Assembly (NCBI GenBank): GCA_014381985.1
Contig: JACNKP010000047.1
Location: 1 to 41,622, forward strand
Source of the DNA: SAR92 clade bacterium
Lineage (GTDB): Bacteria > Pseudomonadota > Gammaproteobacteria > Pseudomonadales > Porticoccaceae
Direction of reading: 5' to 3'
DNA length: 41,622 bases
Position numbers and translations under genes: made by a program. The notes beneath the pieces are model-generated. The model was not told the origin of the DNA, made no database searches, and worked only from the letters and a program-made list of their open reading frames with translations. Positions 1,716 through 14,983 of this stretch are shown piece after piece (position 1 is the first letter of the stretch; the number at the start of each line of letters is the position of its first letter).

Positions 1716-2480
1716 TTAGCTCATATAGGCTTGTCCACCGTCTATGGCGATACTTTGGCCACTAATGTATGAAGATTCTGGTGAACATAGCATCGCCACA
1801 AATTGACCTATGTCTGTTTCGCAGTCACCCACACGTTGCAGAGGGATGCCTTTAATAAATTCGGCCGCTTCTTCTGGGCGGTGTTTCATCCAGTTTTTAA
1901 GGGCCGGTGAGTTTGCGTGAGGCAATATATTGTTGGCTCGAATATTGTCGGCACCCCATTCGCTGGCCGCTGCGCGAGTAAGGGCACGAATCGCATCTTT
2001 TTCAGCGGCATAGACACCATAATTAGCCATGTCCCAGCGTTTTGCCGCTGTGCTGGCCATGTTGATGATTGAACCACCCTGTAGCTTCAAATAGGGATAG
2101 CACAGCTGCATAAGGCGCAATGTGGCCATAGGGCCTACCATGAAAGCCTGTATGACTTTGTCGTCTTGTTGGTCGATTAAGGGCCCAATGGAGGTGGCAA
2201 CGGCGTTGTTGACCAAAATATCGATGGTTTTAAACTGTTGAGCGGTGTCTTGGGTCACACGCTTGAGGTCGTCATGATTGGCTACATCGCAGGCCATGGG
2301 TATGGTTTCTGTTGAAAAGCGTTGTTCGATGATTTTGCAGGTGGCTTGGCACTTTGAGAGGGTGCGACCAACCACCACGACCTTCGCACCCCGCGCTGCT
2401 AGGGCGAAGGCAATGCCTTGGCCTATGCCTTGGCCTGCGCCGGTGATGATGGCTACTTTGTCTTGTAAGGTGGTTAACAT
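1716..2480 (-). CDS. SDR family NAD(P)-dependent oxidoreductase
   Basis: A classical short-chain dehydrogenase/reductase of 254 residues. It has the cofactor motif TGAGQGIG (residues 13-20), NNAV (91-94), the catalytic Ser in INMAST (about 143), Tyr157 and Lys161 in YAAEK, and the usual C-terminus GQSIAIDGGQ. I chose ATG 2480 because it gives the standard N-terminus MLTTLQDKVAIITG four bases after the upstream dehydrogenase stop. An alternative ATG at 2507 would add nine residues and overlap that gene. The enzyme probably oxidises or reduces a hydroxy/keto group of a CoA-bound or steroid intermediate, as inferred from its position behind two acyl-CoA dehydrogenases. It could be an IpdF-like or 3-hydroxyacyl-CoA dehydrogenase, and I cannot decide which. 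Confidence 0.9.
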   Translation of the reverse strand: MLTTLQDKVAIITGAGQGIGQGIAFALAARGAKVVVVGRTLSKCQATCKIIEQRFSTETIPMACDVANHDDLKRVTQDTAQQFKTIDILVNNAVATSIGPLIDQQDDKVIQAFMVGPMATLRLMQLCYPYLKLQGGSIINMASTAAKRWDMANYGVYAAEKDAIRALTRAAASEWGADNIRANNILPHANSPALKNWMKHRPEEAAEFIKGIPLQRVGDCETDIGQFVAMLCSPESSYISGQSIAIDGGQAYMS

Positions 2481-2484
2481 TATT

Positions 2485-3624
2485 TTAGTAACCCATGAGT
2501 TGAGCATAGCGATTTTTGTGATAATCGCTGTCCCCTAAAATTTGTAGGCTTACCCTAGCTCTCTTTAAAAATAACCCTATATCGAGTTCGTCGGTTATGC
2601 CCATACCCCCATGCATTTGAATCGCCTCGTTGCTCACGTGCTGGTAACAATCGTTGATGAGTGTTTTGGCCAAGCTAGCCTGCAACGAGATGTCGGGGCT
2701 ATTCTTGTCTAGACTTGATAGCGCGCTGAGCACTGCAGATTTACTCCGCTCAAGTTGGCAGAACATTTGCGCAGCGCGGTGTTGTAGCGCCTGAAAGGTA
2801 CCAATTTTGACGCCAAATTGTTCTCGTTCCCGAAGGTATTGTAGGGTTCGGTCAAATACCTCTTGGCAGCCACCCAGCATCTCGGCAGAGATGGCAATAA
2901 CACCTCGGTCTAACACGTGCTGTACTATTGTGTGAGCACCGCCTAGCTCGCCAATCACTTGATCTTGTTTTACTCGCACATTGTTAAAGATGATATTGGC
3001 GGCATTGCGTCCGTCCATGTACTGTATTCTGTTTGTTTGAAGCCCTGCAGCGTTACTATCAACTAATACCAGTGACAGGCCTTTTGTGTCTCCAGGATTA
3101 CCAGAACTGCGCACCACAACCACTAACTTATCAGCGCTGTGTCCATCTAAGACAAAGACTTTTTCCCCAGTAATAGTCAGCTGTCCGTTTCGTTCCTTCA
3201 GGCGAACAGCAGTGTTAATAGGTTGATGGTGATGAGTCTCATCAATAGCCAGAGCCAGAGTGAGTTGCCCAGCGGCGATGGTTGGCAATAACGCTTGTTG
3301 TTGTGACGCTGTTCCGCCTAATTCTATCGCCGAGGCACCTAATACCACGGTGGAAAATAGAGGAGAGGCCGTTAGGTTGCGGCCCATGCTCTGCATGACT
3401 GCCCCTAGCCCCTTAAAGCCGAACCCAAAACCGCCAAACTCTTTGGGCATGAGAATCGATGGGACGCCAAGTTCTGTTAGTTGGTTCCACAGAATGATTG
3501 AATAGCCTTTATCGTCGTGGGTGTCTCTAAGACGCCGCAGTTGATCAGTAGGCGCGTTGGTACTTAGAAAGTCGTCGATAGTGTCTTTCAACAGACGTTG
3601 TTCTTCATTTAAAACCATACTCAT
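2485..3624 (-). CDS. acyl-CoA dehydrogenase, small (beta-like) subunit type
   Basis: A flavoprotein of 379 residues from ATG 3624, which has a GAGAAC ribosome binding site. A GTG at 3648 would add eight residues. The N-terminal helical domain begins MSMVLNEEQR, the middle beta domain includes ITGEKVFVLDGHSADKLVV, and the C-terminal helical domain ends with QMHGGMGITDELDIGLFLKR, the signature of the smaller partner in heteromeric acyl-CoA dehydrogenases. The adjacent upstream dehydrogenase is a different subfamily, of the larger partner type. In steroid and pimeloyl-CoA degradation such pairs form alpha2-beta2 enzymes (ChsE, FadE, PimCD types) in which only one subunit carries a full active site. 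Whether these two assemble, and on which substrate, is inference. The SDR gene follows after four bases, so co-transcription is near certain. Confidence 0.92.
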   Translation of the reverse strand: MSMVLNEEQRLLKDTIDDFLSTNAPTDQLRRLRDTHDDKGYSIILWNQLTELGVPSILMPKEFGGFGFGFKGLGAVMQSMGRNLTASPLFSTVVLGASAIELGGTASQQQALLPTIAAGQLTLALAIDETHHHQPINTAVRLKERNGQLTITGEKVFVLDGHSADKLVVVVRSSGNPGDTKGLSLVLVDSNAAGLQTNRIQYMDGRNAANIIFNNVRVKQDQVIGELGGAHTIVQHVLDRGVIAISAEMLGGCQEVFDRTLQYLREREQFGVKIGTFQALQHRAAQMFCQLERSKSAVLSALSSLDKNSPDISLQASLAKTLINDCYQHVSNEAIQMHGGMGITDELDIGLFLKRARVSLQILGDSDYHKNRYAQLMGY

Positions 3625-3674
3625 AAAACTGTTCTCATAAAATGGCACTCGTATCTATTTTGCTGGCCCTTTTG

Positions 3675-4865
3675 CTAAACGGGTAGCTGTAGAGCCTTGT
3701 TGGCAATAATATTGAGTTGAATTTCCGATGTGCCTCCAGCGATAGTATGAGCCTTGTTATAGGCCCAGTTCTTGACGGTCTTTTTTTCGCTTATGGAGAA
3801 TGTCTGATCATGCCAGCTCAACCCGCGATTGCCCATAATGGCCAGTAGGAGCTCATCCTTATGCTGTTGTTCTGATGTACTCAAATATTTCATGGTTAGC
3901 CCAAGACCTCCATCAATAACCCCGCTTTTATGTTGTTGATAGAGCCGAAGAGCACTTAAGGCATCGCCTTGGGCGCGCATTAAATGTTCGCTTAACTGAG
4001 CTCGCAGGCCGTTGTTAGACAGTTTGCCATTGCTATCCAGCCCTACATAGCGTTTGGCGATGGCGATAATATCGCCTTCTTCTTTTTCGACGATAGAGCT
4101 CATGATGCTCATCATATTGCGCTCGTATTTAAGTAACGCTTTGGCAACAGACCAGCCTTCATTGATGTTACCCACAAGGTTATTTTTTGGGACTTTAACG
4201 TCGTCAAAGAAGGTCTGACAGAACTCGTGGTCGCCATTAATCAGCTCCATGGGCCGGGCGTCAACACCTTCAGTGGCCATGTCAATGAGTAAAAAGCTAA
4301 TGCCTTGCTGTTTGGGGGCTTGATGGTCGGTGCGCACCAGGCAAAAGATCCAATCAGACTTGTCCCCCTGAGTGGTCCACATTTTGGTGCCATTGACGAT
4401 AAAGTGATTGCCTTTGTCCTCGGCTCGTGTTTTGAGCGATGCCAAGTCAGACCCAGCTGAGGGTTCAGAGTAGCCTTGGGCCCATCGGATCTCGCCTCGC
4501 ACAATTTTTGGTATATGTTCTTGTTTTTGCTCTTCAGTGCCGTACTCAAGTAGGGCGGGGCCAAACATCCAAAGCCCGATATCGTAAAGGGCAGGACGGC
4601 AACCGAGGGCTTTCATTTCTTGATCGAGTATTTTCGCCTGCTCGAGGGACATGCCACCGCCGCCGTATTGGGTCGGCCAAGAAGGGGCAGTCCATCCTTG
4701 GTCTCTCATGCGCTCGAACCAAAGCTTGGCATCCTCACAGTAAAAAGTGCGACGACGGCCGGCCCAGATTTGTTGGTCTTTGATAATGGGTTGGCGTTGG
4801 GATTCAGGACAATTGGCGATTAACCAATTACGAATGTCTAGCCTGAACTGTTCTGTTGTTTCCAT
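3675..4865 (-). CDS. acyl-CoA dehydrogenase, large (alpha-like) subunit type
   Basis: A protein of 396 residues starting at ATG 4865, preceded by AGGACC. The longer reading to 4937 adds a non-conserved stretch that would run through the operator. Landmarks are GWTAPSWPTQYGGGG (57-71), QGYSEPSAGSDLASLKTRAE in the flavin-binding middle domain, and the C-terminal AHTIAGGTSEIQLNIIA typical of PimC/FadE29-type large subunits. It oxidises an acyl-CoA to the 2-enoyl-CoA using FAD and passes electrons to ETF. It is followed after about 50 bp by the small-type subunit. The gene has its own upstream region with a candidate promoter overlapped by the AAAACATT-N8-AATGTTTT operator, so expression is probably repressed by the neighbouring TetR protein. 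Confidence 0.93.
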   Translation of the reverse strand: METTEQFRLDIRNWLIANCPESQRQPIIKDQQIWAGRRRTFYCEDAKLWFERMRDQGWTAPSWPTQYGGGGMSLEQAKILDQEMKALGCRPALYDIGLWMFGPALLEYGTEEQKQEHIPKIVRGEIRWAQGYSEPSAGSDLASLKTRAEDKGNHFIVNGTKMWTTQGDKSDWIFCLVRTDHQAPKQQGISFLLIDMATEGVDARPMELINGDHEFCQTFFDDVKVPKNNLVGNINEGWSVAKALLKYERNMMSIMSSIVEKEEGDIIAIAKRYVGLDSNGKLSNNGLRAQLSEHLMRAQGDALSALRLYQQHKSGVIDGGLGLTMKYLSTSEQQHKDELLLAIMGNRGLSWHDQTFSISEKKTVKNWAYNKAHTIAGGTSEIQLNIIANKALQLPV

Positions 4866-4908: not shown

Positions 4909-4937
4909 ACTATCGCAAAAAAACATTTAAGTTGCAA
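4909..4937 (-). promoter_or_regulatory. candidate sigma70 promoter of the acyl-CoA dehydrogenase genes
   Basis: On the minus strand TTGCAA (4932-4937) and GATAGT (4909-4914) are separated by 17 bases; each matches the consensus at four of six positions. The promoter lies about 45 bp upstream of ATG 4865, and its -35 region falls inside the palindromic operator at 4920-4943, as expected for a repressed promoter. Each box alone is weak; the placement is what supports the call. Confidence 0.35.
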
Positions 4938-4943
4938 TGTTTT
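4920..4943. promoter_or_regulatory. inverted-repeat operator, copy 1 (AAAACATT-N8-AATGTTTT)
   Basis: Perfect 8-bp arms are separated by eight bases (arms are nine bp if the flanking A/T pair is counted). The identical arms and spacer length recur at 7519-7542. The site sits between the TetR gene and the acyl-CoA dehydrogenase gene. TetR-family dimers bind such palindromes, so the adjacent regulator is the likely ligand (inference). Confidence 0.7.
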
Positions 4944-5002
4944 TAGACTTTAACTTAAGTGCTAGGTTTATAGAGATTCTCGATAGCAGGCGGAATGCGT
5001 TA

Positions 5003-5626
5003 TCAGCGGTGAATAATAGCCAGGAGTTGTTGTTTGATGCGCTCTATATGAATATCTTCAAAAGGCATATTAGGCTCTAGAATGCGGTCTATCGCGAAAC
5101 CGCCGAGAAAACGGTGGGTAAATCTTAGGGCTTCGTTAAGCCGTGCCTGTGGGACGTCATAGCCATCAAAGATCTCGACCATGCCTTTCAAATGCTCGTC
5201 CAGCCCATTGTTAACTCTAATTTGGCGCAGTGGTAGGTTGCTGTTGACACCGCGAGTAGCCATCACAATTTCGGAAAATGCAAAATAAAGATCACTTTTG
5301 TAGTGTTCCCAGACCTTATCTACAAAATGACTGACACGCTCTTCTAAGGTACCTTCCTTTATATCAGCCTGATCTAATGACTGAATATAAACATCGCGAG
5401 ACATTTCCATTACCGCGACCAATATCTCTTCTTTGTTGCCAAAATGATGTTGAACCGCGCCCCAGGTTATCCCTGCCTTTTTTGCAATAGCGGTAGAGCT
5501 AGCAGAGCTATACCCTGATTCGTTAATTAGCATGACAACTGCGTTTAGAATCTTTTCGCGGGTTGCTTTTGCTTTTAACGCCTGATGGCCATCTTTATTT
5601 TGTGTTCGTTTAACAGTCACAATCAT
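5003..5626 (-). CDS. TetR/AcrR family transcriptional regulator
   Basis: A DNA-binding repressor-type protein of 207 residues. The N-terminal helix-turn-helix (about residues 22-70) reads TREKILNAVVMLINESGY, then SSTAIAKKAGITWGAVQHHF, then GNKEEIL, which is the canonical TetR N-domain. The C-terminal half is a helical ligand-binding and dimerisation domain without a recognisable subfamily signature. It lies between the acyl-CoA synthetase gene and the dehydrogenase genes on the same strand. Two copies of one palindrome flank it, at 4920-4943 and 7519-7542, so it most likely controls both divergent operons and senses an acyl-CoA or steroid intermediate. The start ATG 5626 lacks a clear Shine-Dalgarno sequence, and a GTG two codons further on is possible. 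Confidence 0.93.
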   Translation of the reverse strand: MIVTVKRTQNKDGHQALKAKATREKILNAVVMLINESGYSSASSTAIAKKAGITWGAVQHHFGNKEEILVAVMEMSRDVYIQSLDQADIKEGTLEERVSHFVDKVWEHYKSDLYFAFSEIVMATRGVNSNLPLRQIRVNNGLDEHLKGMVEIFDGYDVPQARLNEALRFTHRFLGGFAIDRILEPNMPFEDIHIERIKQQLLAIIHR

Positions 5627-5732
5627 TCACTTTTAGAGTTAGGCGCAAATTGACAATGAGGCATTCTATACAGTTTGTTAGCTAATTTATATTCTCTTAC
5701 GGGTCTGATTTTTAAAATCATCATAATAGGGC

Positions 5733-7457
5733 TCACTGCGGACCATATAAGCGTTTAACTTGTTTCTTCACGACCTTGTTGCTTGCGTTCAAGGGAAAGG
5801 CCTGATCGGTAATAGTGACAATGCTAGGCACTTTGAAATTAGCCAGTTGTCCTCGAACGTGCTCTTGAACTAATTTTTCATCGATTTGAGCTAAATCCTC
5901 TGGGGCAACTCGCACAACCACCATCAATTCTTCGCCATATTGTTCACTGGGGATGGAAAATCCACAGACCTCTAGAACAGAGGGTAGGGATTGAATGATG
6001 TTTTCAATTTCTACAGGAAAAATGTTTTCACCCCCGCGGATCACCATATCTTTAGCACGATCGCAGATGAACAGACACTTATCAGAATCTAGATAACCTA
6101 TGTCGCCGGTTTTAAACCAGCCACCTTTAAACTCGTTTTCATTAGCCTCAGGATTATTGGTGTAGCCGGCAATGGTAGTGGGGCTCTTGATCCATATCTC
6201 GCCAGGTGTGCCCGGTTGCAATTCGATTCCGTTTTCATCACAAAAACACAGATCTACAATAGGGTTTAAAAACCCACTGGAACCACGCTTTAAGTCATAG
6301 AAGCAGCCAGTAAGTGAGGCTCCAGCCGCCCCGGTCTCGGTCATTCCCCAACCTGAACCAGGCAATGAGTCTGAGAATTTTTCCTTTAGTAGCTGAGCGA
6401 GTTTTGCGGGCGTTGCGGCACCTGCGCCACTAACATTGCTAATAGTACTGGTATCTACAGAGCTAAATTTAGGATGTCGAGCAAGCTCTAGCAGCATAGA
6501 AGGTGCGGCTACAAAAATGGTGATTTGTTCTTGTGTTATCAATTCGCAAGCTACGGCTGGGTCCCATTTATACATCAAGACGAGGCTCCTTCCACCGCGC
6601 AGGGTCAGTAAAAACTGAGCAAATAAGCCGCTAACATGAAACAGAGGTACGGTTATTAGGGCCTTTGAGGGTCTGCCGCTATTAAGATGTTTAGTGTAGG
6701 CGTCGATATTAGTCATGTAGGCGGCGGCGGCTACTGCTTCGAAGTTGGTCATCGACTGACAGCATTGGAAGTGTGTAAACAAGGCAGCCTTTGGCGATCC
6801 TGAGGTGCCCGACGTAAACATGATCATGGCTTCGTCATTACGATCAATTACAATCGCTGAGAGTGCGGAGCGCAATTCTATTTCGCACAGATCCATGACA
6901 CTGACATCACTGATGACATCACGATAGCTGTGACAGTTTAGAGGTAGTGTGCCTTGGTGGTGAACGACAATAGCTGTTAGTCCTAAGTCCTGAGGTTGAA
7001 TGATGTCTAGACGCTGTTGATCGCAAAATACGAACGCACAGTGTGCGTCTGCAAGGCTCTGTTGAAGTTCTTTTCGAGCGCCCCAGCTGTTAAGAGGAAC
7101 GGCAACTGCACCGACTGAGATTATGGCAAGAAAGGCAGCCATCCACTCCGGGCAATTGCGCATGGCTATGGCAACTCGATCACCTTTACCTATATTAAAT
7201 TGGCGGATTAGCTGTACGCCAAGAAGATCAGCTTGACGATGAAAATGGCTGAACGACCAGCGATCATCTTGGTATATAACAAATTCTTGCTCAGAGAACT
7301 GGCGGCCTGGGGCAAGCAGTTCGATGAGATTTTTAGGCGCATTGGCGTAAATACGGTAATCAACCCCCCCAGACTGGTGCGAGGTTATTTCAAATGGGGA
7401 GCCTGGTGCAGTGACAGCTTTAATGGCTTGATCAAATGGGGCGCTGAATCCTGACAT
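5733..7457 (-). CDS. class I adenylate-forming acyl-CoA synthetase (FadD type)
   Basis: A 574-residue AMP-forming CoA ligase from ATG 7457, chosen for its GGAAGGAC ribosome binding site seven bases upstream. All core motifs of the ANL superfamily are present: the P-loop-like MFTSGTSGSPK, then GWGMTETG, then GWFKTGDIGYL with DRAKDMVIRGGENIFPVEIE, and the catalytic lysine region NASNKVVKKQ near the C-terminus. It activates a carboxylic acid to its CoA thioester in two steps. Neighbouring genes suggest a steroid-derived acid (FadD3, FadD17 or FadD19-like roles) or a branched fatty acid, but the protein itself does not tell. It is the first gene of the leftward set and is transcribed from the divergent region that holds the perfect palindrome at 7511-7550. 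Confidence 0.93.
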   Translation of the reverse strand: MSGFSAPFDQAIKAVTAPGSPFEITSHQSGGVDYRIYANAPKNLIELLAPGRQFSEQEFVIYQDDRWSFSHFHRQADLLGVQLIRQFNIGKGDRVAIAMRNCPEWMAAFLAIISVGAVAVPLNSWGARKELQQSLADAHCAFVFCDQQRLDIIQPQDLGLTAIVVHHQGTLPLNCHSYRDVISDVSVMDLCEIELRSALSAIVIDRNDEAMIMFTSGTSGSPKAALFTHFQCCQSMTNFEAVAAAAYMTNIDAYTKHLNSGRPSKALITVPLFHVSGLFAQFLLTLRGGRSLVLMYKWDPAVACELITQEQITIFVAAPSMLLELARHPKFSSVDTSTISNVSGAGAATPAKLAQLLKEKFSDSLPGSGWGMTETGAAGASLTGCFYDLKRGSSGFLNPIVDLCFCDENGIELQPGTPGEIWIKSPTTIAGYTNNPEANENEFKGGWFKTGDIGYLDSDKCLFICDRAKDMVIRGGENIFPVEIENIIQSLPSVLEVCGFSIPSEQYGEELMVVVRVAPEDLAQIDEKLVQEHVRGQLANFKVPSIVTITDQAFPLNASNKVVKKQVKRLYGPQ

Positions 7458-7510
7458 GATAGTCCTTCCGCGATGTAGGTATAAGGATTGCCAACCGTAC
7501 CTGTTTAATA

Positions 7511-7550
7511 GCAATAATAAAACATTTTAATATAAATGTTTTATTATTGC
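7511..7550. promoter_or_regulatory. perfect palindrome containing operator copy 2, between divergent operons
   Basis: The arm GCAATAATAAAACATTT (7511-7527) and its exact complement (7534-7550) flank six bases, TAATAT. The core 7519-7542 is AAAACATT-N8-AATGTTTT, identical in arms and spacing to 4920-4943. It lies about 54 bp upstream of the synthetase ATG and 109 bp upstream of the racemase ATG, a good position to control both. It is too AT-rich and badly placed to be a transcription terminator for either gene. The remaining bases of this 201-bp gap show no other strong signal. Confidence 0.75.
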
Positions 7551-7658
7551 TAACCTCGAGTGAATCATGTTACTAGCCTCCAACTAACCTGTAGTATCAT
7601 TAGTAATAGTACATAAACATAAATTTTAACCAATAACACTACTAAATGAGGAGGCGCT

Positions 7659-8813
7659 ATGGGCCCTTTGTCAGGTAAGACGATTATCGAATTCGCTGGA
7701 TTGGGTCCAGGGCCATATGCAGGGATGATGTTGGCTGATATGGGTGCAGAGGTCATTCGTGTGGAGCGGCCAGGCGGCCAATGGTTAACCGTAGGCAGCG
7801 ATCCTAAGTACGACGTACACAATCGGGGCAAATACTCTATCTGTATTAACATGAAGTCAGAGGAGGGTATTGCCTGTGCTAAAAAACTGATCAGCAGCGC
7901 AGATGCACTAATTGAGGGCTATCGGCCCGGCGTTATGGAAAAACTGGGCTTAGGGCCCGATGAATGTTTGAAAATTAACCCTAAATTGGTTTATGGCCGC
8001 ATGACCGGTTGGGGGCAAACTGGGCCGCTAGCCCAGACGGCAGGACATGATATTAACTACATTGCGCTGACCGGGGCTTTGCATGCTATTGGCCAGAAGG
8101 GACAGAAGCCGACGATTCCGCTCAACCTAGTTGGCGATTATGGAGGTGGAGGCATGATGTTAGCCTTCGGACTGGTTTGCGCGCTTTTGGAGGCGCAAAA
8201 TTCAGAGCAGGGGCAGGTTATTGATTGCTCAATTGTCGATGGTGCTGTTAGTTTAATGGGTTTCTTTTACTCACAATTACAGGCTGGAATAGGGTCCGAT
8301 AAGCGGGGTGAAAATATGCTGGATTCTGGGGCGTTCTTTTACGATGTTTATGAAACTAGTGATGGAGGCTATATCTCACTTGGATCAATTGAACCGCAGT
8401 TTTTCAGGCTATTGGTAGACCTATTAGGTCTGGGCGAGATTGAAAGTAAAGAGTGGATTCAGAATCAGTGGGCTCCACAAACCTGGCCTCAAATGGCTGA
8501 TAAATTAGAGGCACTAATAAAAACTAAGAGTCGTGATGATTGGTGTAATCTGTTTGAAGGCACCGATGTCTGTTTTGCACCGGTTTTGTCGATGGACGAG
8601 GCGCGGCACCACCCGCATAACATTGCACGAGAAACCTTTGTCAATGATGGTGATGTATGGCAACCAGCTCCGGTTCCCCGCTTTTCCCGCACCGTTGTAA
8701 ATGCGGGGTCTACAGCGGTTGCTTTGGGTGAGAATAGTCAAACCATCTTGTTAAGCCTTGGCTATGGGCAAGAGGAAATTGACGCCTTATTGGCGACAGG
8801 TGCAATTGCCTAA
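7659..8813 (+). CDS. alpha-methylacyl-CoA racemase (CaiB/BaiF CoA-transferase family)
   Basis: A 384-residue member of family III CoA-transferases. It contains RPGVMEKLGLGP, GRMTGWGQTGP, AGHDINYIALTGALHAIG, NLVGDYGGGG and GSIEPQF. His130, Asp160 and Glu245 occupy the catalytic positions His126, Asp156 and Glu241 of the mycobacterial racemase MCR with a constant offset of four. This argues for racemase rather than true CoA-transferase activity. The enzyme interconverts (2R)- and (2S)-2-methylacyl-CoA, required before beta-oxidation of sterol side chains and pristane-like fatty acids. The start ATG has a strong GAGGAGG six bases upstream. It leads the rightward operon and is divergent from the synthetase, sharing the palindrome. 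Confidence 0.9.
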   Translation: MGPLSGKTIIEFAGLGPGPYAGMMLADMGAEVIRVERPGGQWLTVGSDPKYDVHNRGKYSICINMKSEEGIACAKKLISSADALIEGYRPGVMEKLGLGPDECLKINPKLVYGRMTGWGQTGPLAQTAGHDINYIALTGALHAIGQKGQKPTIPLNLVGDYGGGGMMLAFGLVCALLEAQNSEQGQVIDCSIVDGAVSLMGFFYSQLQAGIGSDKRGENMLDSGAFFYDVYETSDGGYISLGSIEPQFFRLLVDLLGLGEIESKEWIQNQWAPQTWPQMADKLEALIKTKSRDDWCNLFEGTDVCFAPVLSMDEARHHPHNIARETFVNDGDVWQPAPVPRFSRTVVNAGSTAVALGENSQTILLSLGYGQEEIDALLATGAIA

Positions 8814-8922
8814 TTGAGGCTTATAGTCTTGTTGGACGATGATTGAAAGTCCGGTGGTCCGCATATTAGCGACAAAGATGCTGCTTTAAATGTAGAGCGT
8901 TGTAACTAAATTCGGAGGCTTG

Positions 8923-9993
8923 ATGGAGACCCCTTTAACGAAACTTTTAGGTTGCCGTTATCCCGTTATTCAAACCGCGATGGGATGGGTGGCTGATGCT
9001 GGCCTTGTCAGCGCTACCTGCAAAGCGGGCGGCTTTGGCTTTCTGGCTGGGGCAGTAATGACGCCTGAGGAAGTTGAGCAGGGTATTTTGCAGATCAAAT
9101 CGGCAACAGACCAACCCTTCGGTGTTAATTTTCATATGTATACACCGGGTGCTGGTGAAATTATTGATATTTGTATTCGCCATCAGGTCAGAGCGGTTAG
9201 CTACAGCCGTTCACCCGATGCGTCTTCAGTGGAAAAGTTGAAAGCAGCGGGTATCGTGTGTATTCCAACGGTTGGTGCTTTAAAACATGCCGTTAAGGCA
9301 GTCGCGCTGGGTGCTGACGCCGTGGTCGTTCAAGGTGGCGAAGGTGGTGGTCATACCGGAAAGGTGGCAAGCACCATTTTATTGCCTCAGGTCGTATCGG
9401 CACTCGATGTTCCCGTTGTGGCTGCTGGTGGTTTTAAGGACGGTCGCGGGTTAGTCGCAGCTCTGTCTCTTGGTGCGGCTGGTATTGCTATGGGTACACG
9501 CTTTTTGTTAACTCAGGAAAGCCCTGTTCCTCTAACCACCAAACAATATTATTTAAAGACAGCAACTGAGCAGATCATCATTAGTACTAAACTCGATGGT
9601 ATACCTCAACGAATGATCCAAAACCAATACTTGAAAACACTCGAGGGAACATCAACGCTTGGGATGCTGCTGCTAGCCATAAAAAATGGCTTGGCTTTTA
9701 GTAAGTTAACCGGGAGTTCGTTATTTTCAATGTTGCGCTCAGCATGGGCAATGAAGGGATCAAGCGATTTAAGCCTGGGCCAAACGATGATGGCGGCTAA
9801 TGCTCCAATGATGATTCAGCACTCTATGGTCGACGGACATGCGGATCAAGGCATTATGCCCAGTGGACAAATTGCCGGCGCTATTGATGATCTGCCTTCT
9901 GTGGAAAATTTGATGAGCTCTATCATTAAAGAGTCTGGTGAGGTTATTAAGAGATTGGCCGAAGTGAATTCTGAAACCCTCGACCCTAACTAG
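8923..9993 (+). CDS. IpdC-like NAD(P)H-dependent flavin oxidoreductase (nitronate monooxygenase family)
   Basis: A 356-residue FMN-dependent TIM-barrel protein. ATG 8923 is preferred over TTG 8920 because the GGAGG at 8914-8918 leaves proper spacing only for the ATG. It begins METPLTKLLGCRYPVIQTAMGW, and has VVQGGEGGGHTG with the family's active-site-region His (residue 144) and AAGGFKDGRG followed by MGTRFLL in the phosphate-binding part. From memory the whole length, including MMAANAPMM and SGQIAGAIDDLPS, resembles mycobacterial IpdC (Rv3553), which acts in steroid C/D-ring degradation, more than true nitronate monooxygenases. It is followed by an EchA20-like gene, its usual functional partner. 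The family call is firm; the IpdC role is inference. The 109 bp before it hold no clear terminator. Confidence 0.85.
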   Translation: METPLTKLLGCRYPVIQTAMGWVADAGLVSATCKAGGFGFLAGAVMTPEEVEQGILQIKSATDQPFGVNFHMYTPGAGEIIDICIRHQVRAVSYSRSPDASSVEKLKAAGIVCIPTVGALKHAVKAVALGADAVVVQGGEGGGHTGKVASTILLPQVVSALDVPVVAAGGFKDGRGLVAALSLGAAGIAMGTRFLLTQESPVPLTTKQYYLKTATEQIIISTKLDGIPQRMIQNQYLKTLEGTSTLGMLLLAIKNGLAFSKLTGSSLFSMLRSAWAMKGSSDLSLGQTMMAANAPMMIQHSMVDGHADQGIMPSGQIAGAIDDLPSVENLMSSIIKESGEVIKRLAEVNSETLDPN

Positions 9994-10038: not shown

Positions 10039-10791
10039 GTGGCATTTGAAACCATAATTAAAGACGGCATAGCAGAGTTAGTTTTCAACAAACCGCCAGT
10101 CAATGCGTTTGACAGCCTTGAGTGGGCGAGTATTGCTCAGGTTATTAGTGAGTTGGGGGTAGATAACAAAGTTAATGTCATTGTCATTAGGGCTGAAGGC
10201 CGAGGATTCTGTGCCGGTGTTGATATTAAAGAGCTGGCTGCAGACAGCAGTAAGATCGTGGCTGTGAATAAGGGTAACTACGACACCTTCGAGGCGATTC
10301 ACCGTAATCCTAAACCTGTGATTGTGGCCTTGCATGGTTTTGTTCTAGGCGGAGGAATCGGTATTGCAGGTGCTGCAGATATTGTAGTTGCCTCAACCTG
10401 TGCTAGTTTTGGTGTGCCTGAAGTGGACCGCGGCGCCATGGGCGGTGGTGCCCATTTACAGCGACTATTCCCGGTGCAAAAAGTACGACATATGTATTTC
10501 ACAGGAGATTTTATCGACGCACAAGAAGCCTATCGCCTGGGCGCTCTTGAATCGGTCGTAGACCTTTCTGAGCTGCGTGACACGGCGATGGCAATATCCG
10601 CCAAGATAGCCACAAAAAGCTCTCCGATGATTCAATTAGCTAAGGAAGCCCTGACAGGCATTGAAGACGGCAATCTTGAAGATAAATATCGATGGGAGCA
10701 GGGTTTTACACTTCAGGCATACACCGAAGGCGACTCGCAAGAAGGGCGAGATGCTTTTGTCGAAAAACGTGATGCCAAGTTTTCTGACTAA
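10039..10791 (+). CDS. EchA20-like enoyl-CoA hydratase/isomerase (crotonase) family protein
   Basis: A 250-residue crotonase starting at GTG 10039 behind CAGGAGAG. It shows VIRAEGRGFCAGVDIKEL (48-65), GFVLGGGIGIAGAADIVVAS (100-119, oxyanion hole), FGVPEVDRGAMGGGAHLQRL (124-143), and the C-terminal YRWEQGFT and RDAFVEK. These features match, as I recall it, mycobacterial EchA20 (Rv3550), which hydrolytically opens steroid ring D in the HIP-CoA pathway. Ordinary hydratases would have a glutamate pair instead of this RGAMGGG stretch. It sits directly after the IpdC-like gene, which is independent support. The exact substrate in this organism is unproven. Confidence 0.85.
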   Translation: MAFETIIKDGIAELVFNKPPVNAFDSLEWASIAQVISELGVDNKVNVIVIRAEGRGFCAGVDIKELAADSSKIVAVNKGNYDTFEAIHRNPKPVIVALHGFVLGGGIGIAGAADIVVASTCASFGVPEVDRGAMGGGAHLQRLFPVQKVRHMYFTGDFIDAQEAYRLGALESVVDLSELRDTAMAISAKIATKSSPMIQLAKEALTGIEDGNLEDKYRWEQGFTLQAYTEGDSQEGRDAFVEKRDAKFSD

Positions 10792-10797
10792 TAAACT

Positions 10798-12030
10798 ATG
10801 GCCCTGAGTAAACCTTATCGACCCTGGCACTTCAGGCTCATCAATGCGATGGGCGAGTTGCTCAGTACAGTGGGAATACGGCCATCAATTCAGGCCGATT
10901 ATATTCTTAAAAAAGCCATTAAACAGTCTGGGTTTGATGATCTAGGGAATAACCCTGATTACGAAGGACTAGAGGTGTTAGTTGCCTCTATTGAGCGACA
11001 GTCAAAGCTTAATACGATTGGTAGATTAACGAGTCAGAAAATGTTTACCAGGTTTATGAGTAACCGATTACAGTTAGAAGATTGGTTTACCAATCACCCT
11101 GAAGAATTACAGCAAAAAATAGAAAAACCATTATTTATCATAGGCTTACCTAGAACGGGCACTACGATACTTCACAATTTAATGTGGCAGGATCCGAGTA
11201 ATAGAGCGCCTCTAATGTGGGAGATTAATGACCCAATGCCGCGGCCAGAAGCTGATCACTGGCATGATGATCCACGGATTGCCGTTAATCAAAATAACCT
11301 AGATACCTTAAACCGGTTAGCGACCAACTTTCTCGCTATCCATGAGGTAGCGGCGACCTTGCCTCAGGAATGTGTCGGTATTACGCAGCACATGTTTTAT
11401 GGCATTACGCTCTTTTTACATTGGCATGTCCCTGATTATCGACAATGGCTTTTGCAAACTGACCCAGAGCCGGCACTGCGTTATCATAAGCGTTTCTTAC
11501 AGATGCTACAGGCGACTAAAGCGGCAGACCGATGGCTGTTAAAGTCCCCAGGACATCTGAATGTATTACCCACTTTGTTTAAGGTGTATCCCGATGCCCA
11601 AGTGGTGTTCACCCATCGTAATCCGGTGGAGGTTATTGGTTCTATTTGCAGCCTTGTATGGAGTATTTCTGGGATGGCTTCAGATAAGGGCATGGACCCA
11701 CTAAAAATAGGACAAGAGCAGTCACTGAGTTGGAACCAGCTACTAGAGCGAGCGATGATAGATCGAGCAGCCTTACCTCAACATAAAGATCAGTTTCATG
11801 ACCTTTATTTTAGTGACCTTGTGGCTGACCCAGAGGGTTCAATTAAAGATATTTATAAAAATTTCAATTTGCCTCTACCTGATGACATGGGTCAGAGAAT
11901 CACCAATTTTTTGGCACAAAACCCACAAAACAAATACGGCAAGCATCATTATGACTTGGCTGACTTTGGCCTTAGTGAGGCAGGGGAGCGACAACGGTTT
12001 GATAAGTATATTCAGCAGTACCAGCTGTAG
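10798..12030 (+). CDS. sulfotransferase family protein (PAPS-dependent type)
   Basis: A 410-residue protein with the 5'-phosphosulfate loop IIGLPRTGTTILHNL (114-128) and the 3'-phosphate-binding segment VVFTHRNPVEVIGSICSLVW (about 268-287). These are the two landmarks of the Sulfotransfer_3-type family, which moves sulfate from PAPS to a hydroxyl group. The N-terminal 100 residues are helical and not recognised. It starts six bases after the crotonase stop and is clearly part of the racemase operon, so a hydroxylated steroid, lipid or other pathway compound is a plausible acceptor. Some members of this family are annotated without proven sulfotransfer. Its stop is only three bases from the converging rubredoxin-reductase gene, leaving no room for a terminator. 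Confidence 0.85.
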   Translation: MALSKPYRPWHFRLINAMGELLSTVGIRPSIQADYILKKAIKQSGFDDLGNNPDYEGLEVLVASIERQSKLNTIGRLTSQKMFTRFMSNRLQLEDWFTNHPEELQQKIEKPLFIIGLPRTGTTILHNLMWQDPSNRAPLMWEINDPMPRPEADHWHDDPRIAVNQNNLDTLNRLATNFLAIHEVAATLPQECVGITQHMFYGITLFLHWHVPDYRQWLLQTDPEPALRYHKRFLQMLQATKAADRWLLKSPGHLNVLPTLFKVYPDAQVVFTHRNPVEVIGSICSLVWSISGMASDKGMDPLKIGQEQSLSWNQLLERAMIDRAALPQHKDQFHDLYFSDLVADPEGSIKDIYKNFNLPLPDDMGQRITNFLAQNPQNKYGKHHYDLADFGLSEAGERQRFDKYIQQYQL

Positions 12031-12033
12031 GGT

Positions 12034-13689
12034 CTATCGGGCATGCATTATTGGCTGTAATACCCGGTTGAGCTCTTCTCTGAACCTTGTGCAGTCACCG
12101 GTGAGTGCATAACCTAGTAGTTGTCCCTGTACTGTTTTAAACAGAGCTTTAACGCCAGTTGGAGTATTAATCTCTATGTGCCACTGCCCGTCGGTTTTAG
12201 GGGGTGGCGATAGCGTGACTGGGAATAGAGTTGTTTTAACAACCACGGGCATAGTGCCGTAGTAAACGTCTTGCACATCTCCATTAAGGGTTGCGGCTAA
12301 TTTTTTAGCCCCTTCAATTAATGGTGCGACATAAAACAAGAGATGGCTGTCAACTTCGGCGCAGTCACCTAGAGCATAGACATTTTTGGCGCTAGTTTGT
12401 AACGCTCTGTCAGTTATGATCCCTCGGTTGGTTTGCAGCCCTGCAGAATTGGCCAGTGTAAGGTCTGGCCTTACGCCAACGGCCGATAGAACAATATCCG
12501 CGTCTACGAATTGGCCATTAGCAAGGGTTGCTCTAACGCCTATTGCCTGTGTATCAATTTTCTCAACAACCGTGCCAAAGTAAAAGTTCACGCCTGCTGC
12601 TTCTAGAGCATTTTTGACTGAATCAGAGGCAGGTTTTGGCATCAGAGTACCTAACACTGAGGGCAGAGGGTCAACCACGCTAACCTCATAACCACTTTGG
12701 ATGAGGTCGTTGGCGTATTCTGAGCCGATTAAACCACCACCAATAATAAGGACATGGTTTTTACCCTTCATGGCGTCCCGAAAGGTAGCGTAGTCCAGCA
12801 GATTGTTGATCGAGTAGACAGCGTCTAAACCATTGCCAGCCATAGGCAGTTCGATGCAACGAGCACCGGTGGCCAGTATGAGCTTGGAGTACTGGACAGG
12901 ACCTTTAGAGGTGAGCACGCTTTTGTTGTCGATATCGATATTCTCGATATTGGTATACACCTGAATGTCGGCTTGCAATTGCAGGGCCATTTCGCCAGCG
13001 TTAGCAGTGGCTAATTGGTCAGCGGTCTTCTGTTTATGATAGCCGGTAGATATGGCTGGTTTGTAATACATGCGGCCATCATCGCTTGTGATCATGACTA
13101 ACGGTGTAATGCTGTTTAACTTGCGATACTCGCGGGCAAGGTTATAACCCGCTAGGCCAGTGCCAATGATTACGATCGGTGCTTGGCTGTGCTCGATTGC
13201 TTCAGGAGATTCTTGTAGGCTGGCAGTCGCTGGTTCTCTACTTTGTGCGCTGACCGATATCATATCGAAATCTTGTTTGCCCACACCGCAGTCAGGACAC
13301 GTCCAGTCATCTGGAATATCTGCCCATCGGGTGCCAGCTAAAATGTCGTCATCAGGCCAACCTTTGGATTCGTCGTATACCCAGCCGCAGATAACACATT
13401 CCCAAATTTGGAACGGCTCTCCTGAATTATCGGCCACGGGAACAGCTTCGGGCAGTCCTTTAGGCTGTCTGGGTTTTTCTTCAGGGGTAGCAACCTTGGT
13501 GGCAATGGCAGAGAGACCGGTCTTAACCATCTCGAAATCTTGTTTTGTGACACCGCAATCGGGACAGCTCCAGTCTTGAGGGATATCATCCCACAGGGTG
13601 CCGGGGGCTATACCATCCTCAGGAAAACCTTGGGATTCATCGTATATCCAGCCGCATACTATGCATTCCCAGACACTAAAAGAAGTCAT
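12034..13689 (-). CDS. two rubredoxin domains fused to FAD-dependent rubredoxin reductase
   Basis: A 551-residue fusion. Rubredoxin 1 (about residues 5-55) has WECIVCGW and CPDCG (Cys 9, 12, 42, 45). Rubredoxin 2 (about 95-143) has WECVICGW and CPDCG (Cys 98, 101, 131, 134). After a linker, a pyridine-nucleotide disulfide-type flavoprotein begins at about residue 170 with [10 protein letters not shown] (FAD). It has a second dinucleotide fold, [14 protein letters not shown] (NADH), and [10 protein letters not shown] near the end. It resembles AlkG (two rubredoxins) joined to AlkT. The protein would carry electrons from NADH through FAD to iron centres and on to an oxygenase. No AlkB is in the window; the divergent neighbour is a Rieske oxygenase. 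ATG 13689 is preferred over 13704 because of a GGA seven bases upstream. Confidence 0.92.
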
Positions 13690-13832
13690 GATGGTTCCAT
13701 TCATTGATGTGATATCTTATTTTACAGGGGTAAAGGCATTAAGTTAAAGCAAAGAGGTGCATGATAAAGAATATTGAAATAAAGGGGGAATTGGTTGTCC
13801 TATATTTTTTAGCTGAACTACATCCAAATGGA

Positions 13833-13891: not shown

Positions 13892-14983
13892 ATGATGGCG
13901 AAGTCTGCAGACTACAATTTAGGCCCCAATACTTTTCCGCGAGGCTGGTTTATTGTCGCTGAGAGCAACGAGCTAGATGCTGGACCATTGGCGGTAAGGT
14001 TTTTTGGTCAGGATTTGGCACTGTTCAGAGGGGCGAGCGGAAAAGCTGTGCTGTTAGATGCCTACTGTGGACATATGGGTACTCATTTGACTGACAGTAA
14101 AAGTTCGATGATTGTAAAAAATAATGAGCAGATCGAAGGAGATTCCATTCGCTGTCCGTACCACGGTTGGCGCTACAACGCTGAAGGTCATGTGGATGAT
14201 ATTCCTTATTCAGACGGACCTTGCCCAAAATCTGCTTCTATTAAATCCTATCCAGTGGTGGACAACATGGGTTGCGTAATGGCCTGGTACGACCCAGACG
14301 GCCGAGAACCCGATTATGAGCCGCCTAAACTGCCAGAATGGGATGACCCTCGTTGGGTTCGATGGGAACTTGACCATTTAGGTGAGCTAAACATCCATCC
14401 TCAAGAAATAATCGACAATATTGTTGATGTACAGCACTTAGGACCTACCCATGGTGCACCGAGTGAGTATTTCGAAAATGAAATTAAAGACCACGTCTGC
14501 ATCCAACGGCAAGGCGGACCTATGCAACTCTACCAGACCTATCTCAATACCAGTACTTGGTATACCGGCCCAGGCATATTGCTCTCCAAGCAAGAATTTT
14601 CAGGCATGGTTGTCTTTGAATTAATAGCTAATACTCCAGTTGAAGATGGCTTGGTAAAATGTTGGCATGGTTGTTTGGTCAAAGGCAGTGAAGACGTGGC
14701 GACTGAGGCTGATATAGTCATAGCCAAACAGTCACAGGCGGGTGCTTTGGAAGCGTTTAGTGCTGATTTTAATATCTGGCAAAACAAGCGACCAGCTTTA
14801 AAGATCCTGCAATTAAAAACAGACGGCCCTTTTCGAACGGGCAGGAAATGGTACTCGCAATTTTACGCAGCGCCAGCGGATGTTAGCGGAATTCAAAATA
14901 CCGTCAATGGTATACACCTAACAGAGGGTTTAAAAACCGCTGATCAGGCTGGGTACAACATTGATGAAGGACTCACCTTTTAA
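13892..14983 (+). CDS. kshA: KshA-like Rieske oxygenase (3-ketosteroid 9alpha-hydroxylase oxygenase component)
   Basis: A 363-residue Rieske non-heme iron oxygenase. The [2Fe-2S] ligands are CGH (Cys59, His61) and CPYH (Cys88, His91). The mononuclear iron site is DNIVDVQHLGPTH (His182, His187) with a likely Asp at about 292. FPRGWFIVAE, VRFFGQDLALFRG, GWRYNAEGHVDDIPYS and EYFENEIKDH are KshA-type segments, and the length is close to the usual 380. KshA hydroxylates C9 of androstadienedione-like 3-ketosteroids, which opens ring B. It needs a reductase, normally KshB, and none is present here. The alternative is a DAF-36-like steroid desaturase or another steroid oxygenase. GGAG upstream fits either of two consecutive ATG codons. 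It ends at a bidirectional terminator. Confidence 0.82.
   Translation: MMAKSADYNLGPNTFPRGWFIVAESNELDAGPLAVRFFGQDLALFRGASGKAVLLDAYCGHMGTHLTDSKSSMIVKNNEQIEGDSIRCPYHGWRYNAEGHVDDIPYSDGPCPKSASIKSYPVVDNMGCVMAWYDPDGREPDYEPPKLPEWDDPRWVRWELDHLGELNIHPQEIIDNIVDVQHLGPTHGAPSEYFENEIKDHVCIQRQGGPMQLYQTYLNTSTWYTGPGILLSKQEFSGMVVFELIANTPVEDGLVKCWHGCLVKGSEDVATEADIVIAKQSQAGALEAFSADFNIWQNKRPALKILQLKTDGPFRTGRKWYSQFYAAPADVSGIQNTVNGIHLTEGLKTADQAGYNIDEGLTF

Follow-up and report, generated by a model that had tools for sequence, protein, structure and literature searches.

A palindrome flanking a TetR-family gene as the probable operator of a steroid catabolism regulon in a SAR92 clade bacterium

The DNA considered here, 41,622 nucleotides of contig JACNKP010000047.1 from a SAR92 clade bacterium (hereafter the window), carries a gene for a TetR-family regulator of 207 amino acids (5003..5626, minus strand) with a copy of one palindrome, AAAACATT-N8-AATGTTTT, on either side of it. 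Are these palindromes the operator of that regulator and, if so, what would it control? It is likely, with a probability of roughly 0.8, that they are, and that the protein is an autoregulating repressor of steroid catabolism, mainly that of the C and D rings. Both copies, site A (AAAACATTTTAATATAAATGTTTT, 7519..7542) and site B (AAAACATTTAAGTTGCAATGTTTT, 4920..4943), are exact and have the identical arms and spacing that an earlier note on this DNA ascribed to them. The note had seen no other copy in the window, which indeed holds no further match at up to three mismatches; the genome has two more copies on another contig (C24). Site A lies between a proposed synthetase-TetR operon and a divergent operon of CoA-transferase, IpdC-like and EchA20-like genes; site B is centred about 67 base pairs (bp) upstream of the ATG of an acyl-CoA dehydrogenase gene. 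Together they flank the synthetase-tetR unit, and a palindrome near the regulator's own gene is conserved in relatives except in genome G066.

One rival explanation needs no regulator at all: the palindromes would be chance products of AT-rich DNA, or terminators or other structural repeats. Two window matches at up to three mismatches are indeed no rarity, as shuffled windows give a mean of 0.53 and at least two such matches in 12 of 100 shuffles; the unusual part is the exactness of the copies. Under a first-order Markov model the expected number of exact matches is 4.6e-5 for the window and 0.0028 for a 2.5-Mb genome, whereas the genome of the window (G000; 2.5 Mb in 82 contigs) has three exact copies, one with one mismatch and one with two. 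The reversed pattern, used as a control in the same genome, gives no exact match, one at up to one mismatch and two at up to two. Random occurrence across the genome, which the earlier note had named as an outcome that would tell against it, is not what is found. An origin by chance or as terminators is also contradicted by the comparative data described below (17 sites around TetR genes of other families against 0.14 in shuffles; invariant arms within drifting flanks), and it is rejected here as extremely improbable.

The third exact copy (C24:63680-63703) is intergenic and precedes an amidohydrolase gene (PF04909), and the one-mismatch copy (C24:54679-54702), likewise intergenic, lies 56 bp ahead of a KstD gene. 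These two sites are 9 kb apart on a contig with steroid genes, and all four sites of the genome at up to one mismatch fall either in the window cluster or in the KstD-holding cluster of C24. The two-mismatch match (C76:9807) was set aside because it is inside an open reading frame (ORF), and a core-only site (C71:21824) because it has four mismatches to the full motif. Between C24:10000 and 81751, three matches in all lie within the three-mismatch limit: the sites just described and C24:57137-57160 (L005:11138-11161), which has three mismatches and stands before the gene of an FAD protein (C24_57222). The orthologue of this gene in genome G026 has an exact site at the equivalent place (L037 7963), and the match in C24 is perhaps a weak or decayed fifth site. 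The hsa-like and ipdAB-like genes of the same interval have no site of their own at this threshold and were for that reason rejected as direct targets.

The regulator and the palindrome occur together across the family. Among 112 family genomes, with the TetR called at E<=1e-20 and the motif counted as exact matches only, the TetR is present in eight; the motif is found in all eight of these and in one of the 104 without it (Fisher 1.9e-11, a value that is overstated, to the detriment of our reading, as the test ignores relatedness and related genomes are not independent). The count was limited to exact matches because the reversed control at up to one mismatch has matches in 12 of the 112 genomes. 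At that threshold the motif has matches in 17, eight of them with neither the TetR nor an exact copy. The sole TetR-less genome with an exact motif, G033, has its site 5' of a synthetase gene within which the contig ends; in its relatives tetR comes after the synthetase, so that the G033 TetR was probably lost to assembly. The co-occurrence lends support to the proposal of the earlier note that the TetR gene and a small regulon share an operator.

Might the association reflect only the presence of the pathway, or another of its regulators? The first possibility was tested with the EchA20-type gene and KstD, found in 10 and 12 of the 112 genomes, respectively. KstD occurs without a detected TetR in four genomes, namely G033, with its motif and its contig end, and G004, G005 and G067, which lack the motif. 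The KstD of G004 and G005 is more distant (40-41% identity), and G067 has both KstD and EchA20-type homologues with neither TetR nor motif at up to one mismatch. These three genomes speak against presence of the pathway as the only cause. As for another regulator, a protein of 381 amino acids is encoded beside the hsa-like genes (C24:33564-34706, equal to L049:5561-6706, minus strand); it has no Pfam match at E<=1e-5, and its reading as a putative regulator rests on its C-terminal end. That the palindromes are operators of such a pathway regulator, with the TetR merely travelling along, is quite unlikely. The 381-amino-acid protein is present in 10 of the 112 genomes, eight of which have the exact motif, and the TetR locus of G066 is without a site, but G038 and G067 have this protein and neither the TetR nor the motif (up to one mismatch), and in G051 (80% complete), which has both TetR and motif, no copy of it was detected. 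Moreover, the sites of other families cluster round the TetR, and the co-conservation of a recognition helix with the motif, taken up below, concerns the TetR. The contrasts offered by G067, G038 and G051, though few genomes, point to the TetR, and the 381-amino-acid protein is a candidate regulator of the A/B-ring genes, which are without a TetR site.

The sites also stand out from their surroundings. At site B some 26 bp including the spacer are invariant in four genomes, within drifting flanks. At site A, three genomes have invariant arms, and in three the kstD site is retained as well. The spacer of site B may be conserved along with the arms because it would carry a plausible -35 box, TTGCAA, on the minus strand, which is the coding strand of the dehydrogenase; the hexamer is invariant in the four genomes. 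The earlier note had placed site B before the dehydrogenase genes, which is correct, and had it overlapping a -35 box, which stays plausible for this candidate, although a promoter scan of the region did not list TTGCAA. The scan did give a minus-strand promoter-like site (7553-7524) overlapping site A; promoter-like sites in the region are no more numerous than in shuffles (4 versus 5.1). Site A is itself inside a longer inverted repeat with 19 paired bases in each arm (7509-7527 and 7534-7552), and this longer repeat is only partly retained in G030. In four family genomes (G035, G036, G051 and G056) a single site lies between the synthetase, TetR, two dehydrogenase and short-chain dehydrogenase/reductase (SDR) genes and those of the flavoprotein and hydratase, an order that supports the predicted membership of tetR in an operon under its own control. 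In the first three of these, an ORF of 240 amino acids stands ahead of the SDR gene.

Does the association extend beyond the family? In a sample of 390 genomes of the order, 18 of them family members by a hand count, 12 carry the exact motif and one the reversed control. A cut of E<=1e-20 yields 21 genomes with the TetR and one of E<=1e-35 yields 13; TetR and motif are both present in 10. The motif is present in 10 of 21 genomes versus 2 of 369 others at the looser cut and in 10 of 13 versus 2 of 377 at the stricter one, which was picked after the list had been seen, a point against our reading. Without the window's family, the counts become 5 of 16 versus 2 of 356 and 5 of 8 versus 2 of 364, respectively. 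Eight TetR loci of other families, chosen by the protein and taken to about 7 kb on each side or to the contig end, hold 17 sites at up to three mismatches against a shuffle mean of 0.14 and none for the reversed palindrome; seven of the eight carry at least one. As these loci have a GC content of 47-66%, an AT-rich palindrome is conspicuous in them.

A scan at up to two mismatches to the consensus AAAACATTK-N6-MAATGTTTT (the K/M form) covered 12 chosen genomes. The nine with the TetR at E<=1e-35 have 28 sites against three control matches; sites and control matches number 9 and 1 in G204, 2 and 0 in G221, 2 and 1 in G141 and 0 and 1 in G262. In a position table of 19 distinct sequences, with duplicates between genomes counted once and with the exact site of G141 and all one-mismatch sites except three kstD ones left out, position 9 is T or G in 35 of 38 half-sites. 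This is the sole informative position of the table, as the sites were selected by their arms and conservation of the arms is uninformative.

Several observations weigh against the TetR as owner of the motif or against its role in C/D-ring catabolism. In G066 the two sites, one exact and one with one mismatch, lie away from the TetR locus, which is without any even when four mismatches are allowed. No site at up to three mismatches was found near the TetR in Solimonas (L065, L066), G270 and two weaker homologues; G270, whose helix is nonetheless unchanged, lacks one at up to two mismatches even genome-wide. In G221 there is an exact site but no TetR was detected. The exact site of G141 is near a glycosyltransferase gene and probably due to chance. 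The genes next to the sites of four other families are for the most part unlike those of the window, namely KstD-like, luciferase-like, P450 and TonB-receptor genes, and some of the sites are inside mechanically called ORFs (L092 11687, L094 13091, L095 7945); the C/D-ring role may therefore be local. Conservation beside orthologues of the regulator, on which the earlier note had staked its proposal, holds for most of them, with G066, Solimonas, G270 and the weaker homologues as the exceptions. A class-wide search for the TetR (E<=1e-35, 369 genomes) returned only the window's own genome and gave no replication beyond the order; the Solimonas homologues came from a separate search, and when their loci were scanned for a different palindromic operator, only GC-rich repeats came up.

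The part of the protein expected to read the DNA varies with the motif. The recognition-helix segment WGAVQHHFG is present in 14 of 14 TetRs from genomes with the exact motif (the best homologue of each), despite ligand domains that are only 26-42% identical outside the window's own clade. G247 keeps the helix and has a one-mismatch site. In G316 the segment is WGAVQHQFG, with a one-mismatch and a two-mismatch site near the TetR; in Solimonas it is WGAAQHHFG, and Solimonas, G178 and the second homologue of G386 have no nearby site. Homologues in which the predicted recognition helix is changed have degenerate sites or none nearby. A broader proposition, tentative and somewhat short of an even chance, is that a single TetR lineage spans several families of one gammaproteobacterial order with its helix and 24-bp operator fixed while the ligand domain (at the identities just given) and the targets were rewired. 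Those targets would be C/D-ring genes and KstD in the window's family, and KstD-like, luciferase-like, P450 and TonB-receptor genes elsewhere. If true, this would be a previously unreported steroid regulon, a counterpart of KstR and KstR2 of separate origin in which the operator is fixed and the sensed steroid variable.

What kind of TetR protein is this? The TetR_N helix-turn-helix domain is present (PF00440, 43.6 bits versus a cut-off of 24), and the structural model (pLDDT 82.6) is all-helical with a C-terminal ligand domain. Its top Foldseek matches are TetR-type regulators; the nearest folds, at TM-scores of about 0.5-0.75, include PfmR, Bacillus FadR and FasR, with KstR at rank 24, and the best matches by sequence to solved structures are 1vi0 and a Bacillus FadR entry, 3whb. 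These matches, and targets in the window that are CoA enzymes able to serve fatty acids as well, would suit a general regulator of fatty acids or lipids, PsrA-like or FadR-like, for which the steroid genes are only some of the targets. That is unlikely. The best NCBIfam score of the protein is for ScbR (53 bits versus a cut-off of 150), and the equivalog models for PsrA of Vibrio (41.1 versus 300), FadR (50.1 versus 200) and KstR (32 versus 280) speak against membership in those groups. Bacillus FadR and Thermus PfmR, TetR proteins of fatty-acid metabolism, come nearest by sequence among solved structures and rank among the closest by fold, but identity to them in the fold alignment is about 20%. 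The confinement of the four sites of the genome at up to one mismatch to the window and the KstD-holding cluster also argues against a general lipid role, as do the sites of four other families, which in several genomes adjoin KstD-like, P450, luciferase-like or TonB-receptor genes. The operator of AcrR is a 24-bp palindrome with ACATT...AATGT half-sites, like the site here, but AcrR and TtgR control efflux pumps and the AcrR model gives 43.6 bits versus a cut-off of 271.

The gene layout suggests how an autoregulating repressor of steroid catabolism would work at these sites. Bound to 7519-7542, the TetR dimer would block both divergent promoters. On the plus-strand side the promoter would serve a CoA-transferase family III gene (7659..8813; PF02515, 297 bits), which is the first of the operon and had been called a racemase in the earlier note, whose placing of site A between divergent operons was otherwise right; a FabK/nitronate-monooxygenase-like flavoprotein gene (8920..9993; PF03060, 246.6 bits), IpdC-type by resemblance, with 232 bits and below the cut-off for the FabK model; a gene of the enoyl-CoA hydratase family (10039..10791; NF005925, 362.9 bits, cut-off 260) belonging to the PRK07938 family, which we take to be the EchA20 type; and, last, a sulfotransferase-family gene (10798..12030; PF13469, 141 bits). 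On the minus-strand side the promoter would serve an AMP-binding acyl-CoA synthetase gene (5733..7457; PF00501, 213 bits) with a likely start at ATG 7457, the first of the proposed operon, and after a gap of 106 bp the TetR gene. Occupancy of site A would thus let the TetR repress its own operon and limit its own synthesis. On site B (4920-4943) the dimer would mask the -35 region of a proposed minus-strand operon of two acyl-CoA dehydrogenases, pimC-like (3675..4865) and pimD-like (2485..3648), and an SDR (1716..2507); the likely start of the first is ATG 4865 rather than TTG 4937, which is inside site B. The two C24 sites would bring the KstD operon and the amidohydrolase gene under the same control. 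Release of the repressor would come from a CoA thioester formed in steroid breakdown, with the C and D rings as its most plausible source; such an inducer is the likeliest because the FadR and FasR structures carry bound acyl-CoA, according to their titles.

Why steroids? The earlier note had left the choice between steroid and lipid catabolism, and the steroid option has gained support from the KstD beside a remote site, from a KshA-like Rieske oxygenase in the window (13892..14983, plus strand; PF19298, the 3-ketosteroid 9alpha-hydroxylase C-terminal domain, 188.7 bits) and from HsaA-, HsaC- and HsaD-like genes on C24. The KstD-like protein of C24 scores 512 bits against a solved 3-oxosteroid 1-dehydrogenase (PDB 7p18). 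The proteins with HsaA, HsaC and HsaD as best NCBIfam models score 302, 293 and 186 bits, respectively, all under the cut-offs, and a CoA-transferase protein of the same contig (PF01144) is read as IpdA-like. The KshA-like gene, a neighbour from the pathway, lacks a separate site in the window (threshold three mismatches). Behind site A stand the IpdC-like and PRK07938-family genes and a synthetase that is below the FadD3 cut-off (FadD3 family, 227.7 bits versus 657; best NCBIfam model CasG, 340 versus 750), while the ipdAB-like genes of C24 are site-less. In the HIP pathway as published (PMC5380842), EchA20 takes part together with IpdC, which is a FabK-like flavoprotein; the gene content of the plus-strand operon fits this.

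How far, then, does the TetR resemble known steroid regulators? KstR2 represses the HIP (C/D-ring) regulon of mycobacteria and rhodococci in response to HIP-CoA, and its operator is the 14-bp AnCAAGnnCTTGnT (Kendall 2010, PMC3068626). Both are TetR repressors of C/D-ring steroid catabolism, as proposed here for the window's protein, with palindromes between divergent operons and control of their own operon, and they have IpdC-like, EchA20-type, acyl-CoA dehydrogenase and acyl-CoA synthetase genes in common as target types. The 24-bp palindrome differs from the KstR2 operator in sequence and length, which bears out, for KstR2, the statement of the earlier note that the motif is distinct from the KstR, KstR2, PsrA and FadR operators. 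The site assignments differ too, in that kstD is preceded by one here, whereas none at up to three mismatches accompanies the hsa-like or ipdAB-like genes. Judged by chain names, some of them generic, rather than by direct comparison of sequences, the 47 PDB profile matches at E<=1e-6 do not include KstR2, which tells against orthology. By analogy, the TetR would work like KstR2 but does not resemble it in operator. KstR, the regulator of upper cholesterol catabolism, shares the TetR fold and steroid targets, and differs in the low score of its model given above and in its motif, a 14-bp palindrome (PMC3068626).

Control of the 9,10-seco pathway has been worked out in mycobacteria, with KstR and KstR2, and among Proteobacteria mainly in Comamonas testosteroni, where TesR/TeiR, RepA and TetR are the known regulators (PMC6678751). 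Compared by description only, TeiR is of the LuxR type and the TetR of C. testosteroni acts on 3,17beta-HSD. The latter was reportedly studied by Pan et al. in 2015, and EdcR of Caenibius is said to be the subject of a separate publication (PMC8700777). For the TetR of a bile-salt cluster in Caenibius, other palindromes were proposed in a 2026 paper (PMC12882949). The main text of a survey of 33 regulator groups in Proteobacteria does not contain the word 'steroid' (PMC5343134), and the literature searched, where results were partly irrelevant, gave no published description of the motif or of this regulator/operator pair. An operator readable from sequence would allow steroid regulons to be delimited in uncultured gammaproteobacteria, could place the amidohydrolase, luciferase-like monooxygenase, P450 and TonB-receptor genes in the steroid pathway, and might be used for steroid-responsive reporters.

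Some smaller points concern single genes. Exact sites in other families precede a luciferase-like monooxygenase gene at L092 14849-14872, L093 10997-11020 (where the site overlaps its called start), L096 7652-7675 and L098 6768-6791, and all four genes adjoin a KstD-like or P450 gene, which suggests a role for this monooxygenase in steroid catabolism. The record L064 (PANE01000023.1), titled Rhodospirillaceae bacterium, has the cluster at 70-87% protein identity to the window, and its name is probably mismatched to the organism. The sulfotransferase gene is split into two ORFs in G026 and absent from the G030 locus as mapped; possibly it is dispensable or confined to some strains. In the window, the KshA-like oxygenase gene adjoins one for a fused protein of two rubredoxin domains and a rubredoxin-reductase-like part (12034-13704). 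The fusion was not found in the mapped G066 locus and stands beside the KshA-like gene in G030, G035, G036 and G056 as well; it could be an electron donor that replaces a KshB-type reductase.

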